NCBI GenBank assembly: GCA_958295525.1
Contig: OY282355.1
Coordinates: 310,001 to 374,000 of the forward strand
Origin: an uncultured Dehalococcoidia bacterium
GTDB taxonomy: Bacteria; Chloroflexota; Dehalococcoidia; Lucifugimonadales; Australimonadaceae
Direction of reading: 5' to 3'
DNA length: 64,000 nt
Shown here: one piece after another, positions 61,682-64,000 of the stretch
Layout of the letters: each line of letters opens with the position of its first letter
Position numbering within the stretch: position 1 is the first letter of the stretch
Notes under the pieces: model-generated
Database searches by the model: none
What the model was told of the DNA's origin: nothing
Seen by the model: the letters and a program-made list of their open reading frames with translations, nothing else
Program-made: the position numbers and the translations under genes

Positions 61682-62425
61682 ATGACGCTCCAGGCTCCCT
61701 CGCAGAACGCCGTCCGCGCCGCCGACCCGGCCGCGCCGCGCCACGTCGCCATCATTATGGACGGCAACGGGCGCTGGGCGAACGAGCGCGGCATGCCGCG
61801 GCTCTCCGGGCACAAAGCCGGAACCGGGAACTTCCACCGCGTCCTGCGAACGTTCCACGAGCGGGGGGTGGATTTCGTGACGCTCTACGCCTTCTCCACC
61901 GAAAACTGGAGCAGGCCCCCCGCCGAGGTGAGCGGCCTCCTCAGTCTCCTCACCGCCGTCATCGCCTCCAGTATGGACGAACTGCACGAAAACAACGTCC
62001 GCATCCGCCACCTTGGGGAACTGCGGCATCTGCCGGACGACCTCGCGGAGGCGATACGGGGCGCCGTCGCCCGCACCGGAGGCAACTCCGGCCTCGAGTT
62101 GTGCGTCGCGTTCGACTACGGCGGGCGCGCCGAGATCGTCCGCGCCGTCCGCCGCATCGTCGCCGCCGGAACCGCCCCGGAGCAGGTGACCGAGGAACTG
62201 ATCAGCGCCAATCTCTACTTGCCCGACGTGCCCGACCCCGACCTCATCATTCGCACCGCCGGCGAGCAGCGGCTCAGCAACTTCCTCATCTGGCAGGCCG
62301 CCTACAGCGAGTACTACCACACGCCCGTCTACTGGCCGGACTTCGACGCGGAGGAGGCGGAGCGGGCGCTGGCGGAGTACAAACGCCGCCGCCGCCGCTT
62401 CGGGGCGCTGCCCGAGGAGGGGTGA
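61682..62425 (+). CDS. uppS: Isoprenyl transferase (undecaprenyl diphosphate synthase)
   Basis: 247 residues. cis-prenyltransferase: HVAIIMDGNGRWANERGM (the catalytic Asp near residue 27), SGHKAG, YAFSTENWSRP (about 78), and the C-terminal LIIRTAGEQRLSNFLIWQAAYSE with the second substrate Arg. Makes the lipid carrier for cell-wall and glycan synthesis. In most genomes cdsA and dxr follow in this cluster, but here an unrelated low-GC pair does. Confidence 0.95.
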   Translation: MTLQAPSQNAVRAADPAAPRHVAIIMDGNGRWANERGMPRLSGHKAGTGNFHRVLRTFHERGVDFVTLYAFSTENWSRPPAEVSGLLSLLTAVIASSMDELHENNVRIRHLGELRHLPDDLAEAIRGAVARTGGNSGLELCVAFDYGGRAEIVRAVRRIVAAGTAPEQVTEELISANLYLPDVPDPDLIIRTAGEQRLSNFLIWQAAYSEYYHTPVYWPDFDAEEAERALAEYKRRRRRFGALPEEG

Positions 62426-62542
62426 CGCGAGGGGCGGCGAGGGCGCCTTGCCCGTTCCCGGCTTCCTCTGTACTATGCGTCTACGCCTAACGAATGAGCG
62501 AGCAAGACGACGCGATGACGAAGTTGGTGTATAATGCGCGCT
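62426..62542 (+). promoter_or_regulatory. Promoter region of the ATPase pair
   Basis: TATAAT at 62530-62535, seven bases (GCGCGCT), then ATG 62543. No ribosome site and no clear -35. The GC content drops sharply in this interval. Confidence 0.45.
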
Positions 62543-63748
62543 ATGACGCAGTTCATCGAAAATATCCGGCTGGACGGCATCCTCTCCTACGGAAGAGCTG
62601 AGTTGGCGTTTCCTCTGAAGCCGCTCAATGTCCTCATCGGCCCGAATACGTCGGGGAAGTCAAACCTGATCGAAGCCTTGTCGCTCCTCGCGGCGGCGCC
62701 CCGTGACCTGCAGGCGGCGATTCGGGAGGACGGAGGCGTCCGCGATTGGATATGGAAGGGCAGCCGCGAGAACGCCAACGCCAGTGTGGACGTGACCGTT
62801 GCCTACGAGAACAAGCCGCAGTTGCGGTACAAACTCTCATTTGCCGATGTTGGGGCTCGCTTCGAAATCATTGACGAGGCTGTCGAAGACGCCTACCCTC
62901 CGGCAGGAAGGGACGAACCGTACTTTTACTACCGCTACCAACACGGACTGCCTGCAGTTAACGTTAGAACCGAGGAAGGAAGGCTCGACCCTAAACGTTT
63001 GCAAGCCAACCGCAACCTCCGGCGTGAACATTTCAAGCCAAGTCAGTCCATCCTATCCCAATTGAGAAGTCACGACGTTTACCCAGAGTTGACGTACTTG
63101 GCCGATGGCTTTGAGAGGATGGCCTTCTACCGGGAATGGAGTTTGGGTCGGCGCGCGCCTGCCCGTCTTCCGCAAAGTGTAGACCTACCGCAGGACAGCC
63201 TACTTGAGAATGCGTCCAACCTAGCCATAGTACTGAGCGCATTGCTGAATGAGCCCGAGGCAAGAGAGTGGATACTCGGGAGGATGCGTGAGTTTTACCC
63301 TTCCATTAGAAATATCCAAACTCCCGTACAGGGCCCCGCTATCCAAGTTTCTTTCCATGAGGAAGGGTTGAGCCACCCTGTGCCAGCCACGCGGCTTTCC
63401 GACGGCAGCATACGCTACCTATGCCTGCTCGCGTCTCTGCGCAACCCTACCCCCCCCCCGCTCATATGCATAGAGGAGCCGGAGGTTGGCCTGCATCCCG
63501 ACATTATCCCGGAAGTCGCGCAATTGCTGAAGGATGCCTCCACCCGGTCTCAGATCATCGCAACCACGCACTCGGACGCCCTTGTGGATGCGCTGACCGA
63601 CACGCCGGAATCGGTGGTCGTGTGTGAAAAGTTCGATGGAGCGACACAGCTGCGCCGCCTAGACTCCGAGGAACTCGCAGTTTGGCTTAAGGACTACCGG
63701 CTTGGCGAACTCTGGACACGGGGGGACCTCGGAGGCAACAGGTGGTGA
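62543..63748 (+). CDS. AAA-family ATPase of the OLD/RecF-like (AAA_21) type
   Basis: 401 residues. Walker A is LIGPNTSGKSNLIEA (33-40 core), an ABC-type signature RLSDGSIRYLCLLASL lies near residue 280, and Walker B LICIEEPEVGLHPD near 305, followed by IATTHSDALVDAL. The coiled-coil arm is short. Such ATPases are found alone or with a nuclease partner (TOPRIM-type) in anti-phage systems such as OLD, Gabija or PARIS-like modules. The downstream gene overlaps by seven bases and encodes a TOPRIM-like DUF4276 protein. Codon use and GC differ from the neighbours, a sign of transfer. Confidence 0.88.
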   Translation: MTQFIENIRLDGILSYGRAELAFPLKPLNVLIGPNTSGKSNLIEALSLLAAAPRDLQAAIREDGGVRDWIWKGSRENANASVDVTVAYENKPQLRYKLSFADVGARFEIIDEAVEDAYPPAGRDEPYFYYRYQHGLPAVNVRTEEGRLDPKRLQANRNLRREHFKPSQSILSQLRSHDVYPELTYLADGFERMAFYREWSLGRRAPARLPQSVDLPQDSLLENASNLAIVLSALLNEPEAREWILGRMREFYPSIRNIQTPVQGPAIQVSFHEEGLSHPVPATRLSDGSIRYLCLLASLRNPTPPPLICIEEPEVGLHPDIIPEVAQLLKDASTRSQIIATTHSDALVDALTDTPESVVVCEKFDGATQLRRLDSEELAVWLKDYRLGELWTRGDLGGNRW

Positions 63749-64000
63749 AGGTCAAACTCCTCGTGGAAGGCGGTGGGGATGGGAAACGAAAGTCCGTGAA
63801 CAGGGAATGCCGCAAGGGATTCCGTCTCTTCCTGGAGAAGGCCGGAATGGGGCGAATGCCTGATATTACAGCTTGTGGCGGGCGCCAGAAAGCCTACGAT
63901 AAGTTCGTGCACGAGCATGGCGATGACAATGCCTTGGTTGTTCTCCTGGTTGACGCCGAAGGTCCTGTCACTTCCTCGGGCCCGTGGGAACACCTCAAGT
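63742..64000 (+). CDS. DUF4276 family protein, partial (cut by window end)
   Basis: 86 visible residues from GTG 63742 (or 63745). The N-terminus is typical of DUF4276: KLLVEGGGDGK (a TOPRIM-like Glu in VEGGGD), RKGFRLFLEKAGM, ACGGRQKAYD, and VVLLVDAEGPV with an Asp-x-Glu. DUF4276 proteins are predicted TOPRIM-fold nucleases and are often coded next to AAA ATPases. The overlap with the ATPase gene shows translational coupling. Confidence 0.8.
   Translation, partial: MVKVKLLVEGGGDGKRKSVNRECRKGFRLFLEKAGMGRMPDITACGGRQKAYDKFVHEHGDDNALVVLLVDAEGPVTSSGPWEHLK

Follow-up and report, generated by a model that had tools for sequence, protein, structure and literature searches.

A gene pair inserted between uppS and cdsA

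The window analyzed here is a 64,000-nucleotide stretch (positions 310001-374000) of a Chloroflexota genome assembled as a single contig of 2.51 Mb with 96.5% completeness. Directly downstream of uppS it contains the first 1.57 kb of an atypical segment of ~1.98 kb in total, which encodes an ABC-type ATPase followed by a DUF4276 protein (Table 1). Reading past position 64000 completed the DUF4276 gene (203 aa), and its stop codon was found to be followed after 53 nt by cdsA, a cytochrome c gene, dxr, and rseP. The first-pass annotation had proposed that the pair replaces the end of the conserved rpsB-uppS cluster. This part of the proposal did not hold, because cdsA and dxr are still present downstream and nothing has been lost. 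Rather, uppS and cdsA, two essential genes, are separated by a cleanly inserted segment of ~1.98 kb that carries the pair. Comparison of uppS neighbourhoods indicated that the pair is not conserved at this site: the uppS-cdsA junction lacked it in all 27 relatives in which both genes were readable, and in four congeners the uppS stop codon overlaps the cdsA start (TGATG). A chimeric assembly is unlikely, since on either side the insertion is joined to the same conserved operon within a single contig. The cytochrome c gene between cdsA and dxr (L002 5102-5506) is present in this genus (L005-L008), while the other family members read do not have it and carry dxr directly after cdsA.

Table 1. 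Features of the inserted segment, its upstream flank, and the three further pairs of the same genome. Positions are those of the window unless a locus name (L) is given.
Feature	Position	Strand	Remarks
uppS	61682..62425	+	247-aa ORF; host housekeeping gene, upstream flank; orthologues adjoin cdsA in 27 relatives
Insertion 5' edge, non-coding leader	62426..62529	+	Missing in four congeners; no significant RNA fold
TATAAT -10 element	62530..62535	+	Predicted leaderless-type promoter, 7 nt before ATG 62543; no good -35
HEC-01A, OLD/SMC-type ABC ATPase	62543..63748	+	401 aa (404 aa from ATG 62534)
Walker A GPNTSGKS	62639..62662	+	G33, N35, G38, K39, S40 invariant in 68 sequences
ABC signature RLSDGS	63392..63409	+	R284, S286, D287, G288 invariant in 68 sequences
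Walker B LICIEEPE	63461..63484	+	E311, E312 nearly invariant, P313, E314 invariant (68 sequences)
H-loop histidine H343	63569-63571	+	Invariant in 68 sequences
ATPase/DUF4276 7-bp overlap	63742..63748	+	TGG TGA with GTG start
HEC-01B, DUF4276 TOPRIM-like protein	63742..64000	+	86 of 203 aa in window; 353 bp further (L002:3742-4353)
E9 codon, TOPRIM glutamate ending strand 1	63766..63768	+	Invariant in 70 homologues
D71-A-E73 codons, DxE where TOPRIM has DxD, strand 3 end	63952..63960	+	D and E invariant in 70 homologues
Pair 2	L149 3426-5224, near 156.5 kb		Between rsmI and acyl-CoA dehydrogenase gene
Pair 3	L150 3243-5043, near 1545.8 kb		Between dnaJ and prmA
Pair 4	L151 1987-3994, near 1397.9 kb		~50 nt upstream of probable methylmalonyl-CoA mutase gene

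The lower GC content that had been remarked on for this segment is quantitatively clear. It amounts to 58.5%, versus 68.2% for the window, in which no other 1980-bp stretch falls below 63.5%, and GC3 is 0.68-0.70 in the two inserted genes versus 0.89-0.92 in uppS, frr, cdsA, and dxr. This atypical composition, combined with the absence of the pair from the site in all 27 relatives, supports horizontal acquisition. Insertion as part of a mobile element was considered and rejected, as no long flanking repeats, recombinase, or tRNA were found at the segment edges. An RNA element of the retron kind was similarly rejected: there was no Rfam match, and folding of the first 50 nt of the leader gave a z-score of -0.4.

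The -10 element that had been placed seven bases from the ATPase start codon is indeed at exactly that distance. ATG 62543 is the likelier start, because the alternative in-frame ATG at 62534 falls inside the TATAAT hexamer. Of the six TATAAT hexamers that the window contains, two (62530, and 46968 on the minus strand) lie 6-7 nt ahead of a long ORF's start codon, a spacing that suggests leaderless promoters in this genome. A leaderless promoter common to the relatives was rejected, with TANNNT found there in 4 of 75; many of the relatives carry a purine-rich Shine-Dalgarno-like stretch instead. The inserted genes would probably be expressed from their own leaderless promoter along with read-through within the uppS-cdsA operon.

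The ATPase

All three motifs by which the ATPase was first recognized (GPNTSGKS, RLSDGSIR, and EEPEVGLHP) are present, and an HMM search returned a match to AAA_21 (E 3e-40). The PADLOC model HEC-01A (PDLC04177) matched over the whole length of the protein (E 1.5e-161). In an alignment of 68 homologues the ABC motifs were invariant or nearly so, and as far as its sequence tells, the gene is intact with every one of these motifs in place. The AF2 model of the protein (pLDDT 91, pTM 0.90) was found to be closest in fold to SMC and Rad50 heads (Z 19-22), with PtuA defence ATPases at Z 19-20.

A predicted TOPRIM fold for the DUF4276 protein

The 86 residues encoded in the window score only 12.7 bits against the DUF4276 model, below its gathering cut-off of 30.2, while the full protein passes it with 72.5 bits (E 7e-20). 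The assignment to DUF4276 made from the motifs VEGGGD and DAEGP, both of which are present, was thus upheld at full length. The protein also matched PADLOC HEC-01B (PDLC04201; E 4e-71). No solved DUF4276 structure was found by sequence search. As the window encodes no more than 86 residues of the protein, the structure search was performed with a homologue, L057, which is 55% identical and was modelled from 70 sequences (mean pLDDT 96, pTM 0.91). With Foldseek, the five best rows were OLD TOPRIM domains at weak E-values of 0.05-0.2, and nothing matched under E 0.05. With VIA-align, the seven top PDB entries were all TOPRIM domains of OLD or PARIS AriB proteins (Z 7.6-9.4), including OLD 6nk8 (Z 9.4, 160 residues aligned, 3.9 A) and AriB 8ux9 (Z 9.3, 163 aligned, 4.1 A); the retron Eco8 OLD nuclease scored Z 5.1 and the first unrelated fold Z 4.5. 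A viral structure library gave no useful match.

Five acidic residues, E9, D70, E72, E113, and D119 in L057 numbering, are invariant in 70 of 70 sequences. E9 follows strand 1 and D70 follows strand 3, the places expected of a TOPRIM domain, with the motif reading DxE and not DxD throughout, and E113 and D119 fall in the segment after strand 4. In the OLD protein of B. pseudomallei, the ligands of metal A are E400, D455, and D457, and E508 binds metal B (PMC6755086); from its position, E113 may be the DUF4276 counterpart of E508. By prediction and alignment, then, the DUF4276 homologue has a TOPRIM fold with an invariant acidic set, in agreement with the TOPRIM-like character first ascribed to the family. 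Importantly, the fold and the specific invariant residues make the mechanism of DUF4276 directly testable.

Linkage and distribution of the pair

To follow the pair beyond this genome, the best 80 of 484 relatives found in GTDB genomes (~85,000 species) were analyzed; the search used a single motif and covers one subfamily. The ATPase gene was immediately upstream of the DUF4276 gene in 79 of the 80 loci, and the remaining locus lies at a contig edge. The seven-base overlap reported in the first-pass annotation is real, and most of 77 relatives, from different phyla, share the same TGGTGA junction. Such an overlap is likely to couple translation of the two genes. The 80 best relatives span 12 named phyla, and with 484 relatives in this one subfamily, pairs of this kind are widespread. 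On the ATPase tree, 24 phylum changes were counted, a number possibly inflated by binning errors in metagenome genomes, versus a least possible 10 and a shuffled mean of 44. Because the count lies between these two values, spread appears to have been partly vertical and partly by transfer. The 77 loci correspond to 54 distinct contexts. Seven Caldilineaceae keep the pair at one site, and in some lineages it looks more resident than mobile. No match for this protein or its Dickeya relative was found in plasmid and phage records at the protein level, nor was a relative found in E. coli genomes by a distant DNA search.

Closer to the source genome the distribution is patchy. The ATPase and DUF4276 genes co-occur in the same 6 of 98 near relatives, a seventh in which the ATPase is found carries a divergent DUF4276 gene beside it, and none of five congeners has a close relative of the DUF4276 protein anywhere in its genome. 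These data bear on the idea that the pair is an ATPase-nuclease of the Rad50/SMC/RecF kind serving DNA repair or chromosome maintenance and not defence. The SMC and Rad50 heads at the top of the fold comparison would fit such a role, as would the mostly metabolic neighbour genes and the archaeal OLD-family ATPase Cran1, which is reported to act in the cell cycle (PMC12796447). Patchy presence, atypical composition, and several divergent copies per genome are hard to reconcile with it, however, and the scores of the PtuA defence ATPases are close to those of the SMC heads. We therefore regard a repair or maintenance function as quite improbable.

In three loci, L077 and L125 (among the 80) and L135 (genome G091), an ATPase gene with in-frame stops or frameshifts stands beside DUF4276; these pairs are decaying or mis-assembled. 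They illustrate that decay happens, as would be expected if the present pair were an inert passenger, that is, a recent and non-functional insertion. Here, however, both frames are open, every motif is intact, and a consensus -10 element stands at leaderless spacing, which makes an inert passenger very improbable.

Further pairs in the same genome

Four genes in this genome score above the DUF4276 cut-off, each with an ATPase gene of its own. This is the highest number among the 98 relatives, 79 of which have none and the next highest of which has 3. The four pairs represent four different HEC-01 subtypes, and because identity between them is only 21-27% for the ATPase and 17-26% for DUF4276, they are not recent duplicates. 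Each of pairs 2-4 immediately precedes a housekeeping or metabolic gene that is read in the same direction (Table 1). Pair 2 and the rsmI start share 4 bp, and the pair is absent from all seven relatives with both rsmI and the acyl-CoA dehydrogenase gene. The DUF4276 stop codon of pair 3 overlaps the prmA start (ATGA), and dnaJ adjoins prmA without the pair in 13 of 13 relatives. Thus, three of the four pairs, including the one between uppS and cdsA, occupy junctions that are empty in relatives. A 523-bp rsmI fragment (L205 2909-3431, ~1712.4 kb), 97% identical to the intact copy beside pair 2, precedes a leuS-like gene and is, to judge from its sequence, a recent partial duplication.

One tentative interpretation, which we consider possible but rather doubtful, is that DUF4276 constitutes a further independent class of split-OLD TOPRIM effector (DxE for DxD) whose pairs spread without mobility genes by precise threading into housekeeping-operon junctions, where they would ride on host expression, four ancient subtypes having been inserted in this genome. 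The threading into essential operons raises the question of how integrase-less defence genes move and stay.

A candidate anti-phage module

The pair consists of both HEC-01 components in adjacent positions, as in the PADLOC candidate class, and the first-pass proposal of a candidate defence module agrees with these matches. The accompanying remark that the ATPase/DUF4276 combination is little characterized needs qualification: the combination is already catalogued in PADLOC, but only as a candidate class, and a literature search on DUF4276, PF14103, and HEC-01 returned nothing relevant, with DUF4276 named in no paper found. A relative 57% identical to L057 was found inside a BREX operon, where brxC and pglX flank the pair, in keeping with a published observation that OLD ATPases linked to TOPRIM are recurrent at BREX loci (PMC12839542). 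This operon, on the IMG/VR contig L144 (507-10423), has the order brxF - brxC - HEC-01A - HEC-01B - pglXI - HEC-02A; the defence locus is bacterial, although its contig is classed as viral. On the other hand, the immediate neighbours (130 genes) are mostly metabolic with few defence families, and this counts against defence, as do the lack of plasmid and phage matches, the long retention of the pair at one site in some lineages, and the weak Foldseek E-values of a model that is that of a homologue. A defence-island context was accordingly set aside as weak.

Taken as a whole, the pair is probably an anti-phage module of two genes that belongs to the candidate class HEC-01 and was acquired horizontally. 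It would be built as an OLD system split in the manner of PARIS, and we infer its candidate anti-phage role on this basis. In PARIS, a hexamer of the AriA ATPase sequesters AriB, which is released when phage proteins are sensed and then cleaves tRNA (PMC12409363). The HEC-01 ATPase would, by analogy, serve as sensor and gate and the DUF4276 protein as the cutting enzyme: the ATPase would form a complex that holds the nuclease inactive and would respond to an infection cue, and the triggered DUF4276 protein would cleave nucleic acid (DNA or tRNA), with abortive infection or degradation of the invader as the outcome.

The main rival to this anti-phage function, and one that overlaps with it, is a selfish toxin-antitoxin pair, with DUF4276 as a toxic TOPRIM nuclease and the ATPase as antitoxin, persistence being due to addiction and phage defence being absent or incidental. 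Pairs of AAA ATPase antitoxins and TOPRIM_OLD toxins have been validated in toxicity-neutralisation assays (PMC10440598), the ATPase-first order and tight overlap are as expected of such a pair, and a position upstream of essential genes would resist deletion. A neutraliser, however, does not need an ABC ATPase this large and fully conserved, with all catalytic motifs present, and the BREX-embedded relative points to defence. We consider a purely selfish pair unlikely.

Comparison with known systems

The closest catalogued system is HEC-01 (Hma embedded candidate 1), with which the pair shares both genes, their order, and their adjacency through whole-length matches. HEC systems form a candidate class under unknown mechanism (PMC10855318). 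The name derives from an Hma locus, whereas the present pair sits in a housekeeping operon (uppS, cdsA) and not beside Hma genes.

MADS has been cited among the systems that join ABC ATPases and Toprim domains (PMC12409363). MAD3 of this anti-phage system is the nearest curated named family for our ATPase (2.6e-21), which gives indirect support to defence. Downstream of MAD3-type ATPases comes a mad4-like protein, and one such protein has a weak match to DUF4276 (4e-4). The present ATPase, however, stays below the curated MAD3 cut-off (76 vs 420 bits) and there are no methylase genes in the neighbourhood. Profile comparison of DUF4276 with mad4-like proteins comprised three mad4-like rows only and neither supported nor refuted homology. 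Divergent ATPase+DUF4276 and MAD3+mad4-like pairs were also seen elsewhere (L138 893-2703; L139-L142), and the motif ELExW is common to mad4-like and DUF4276 proteins, which, to go by sequence, may be distant relatives.

AbiL, composed of the AbiLi ATPase and the RloB/TOPRIM protein AbiLii, is likewise a two-gene system of ATPase and TOPRIM-type effector (PMC10440598). Our ATPase matches the AbiLi model (8.6e-22), but the DUF4276 protein matches neither AbiLii nor RloB.

With class 1 and class 2 OLD proteins and Gabija GajA, the pair shares the SMC/OLD ABC ATPase logic and the TOPRIM catalytic layout. In those proteins both parts are in one polypeptide, with an adjoining helicase gene in Gabija (PMC7049728, PMC10568477), whereas here there are two genes and no helicase, cdsA coming next. 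PARIS, which responds to phage proteins like Ocr, has, as in the present pair, separate genes for ABC ATPase and TOPRIM protein, and the model of the DUF4276 homologue matches AriB (8ux9, Z 9.3). AriB, however, is a DUF4435-type protein of ~300 residues, and the present effector has no AriB or DUF4435 match. Membership in PARIS thus fails on the effector family, while the view that the pair works like PARIS and OLD stands.
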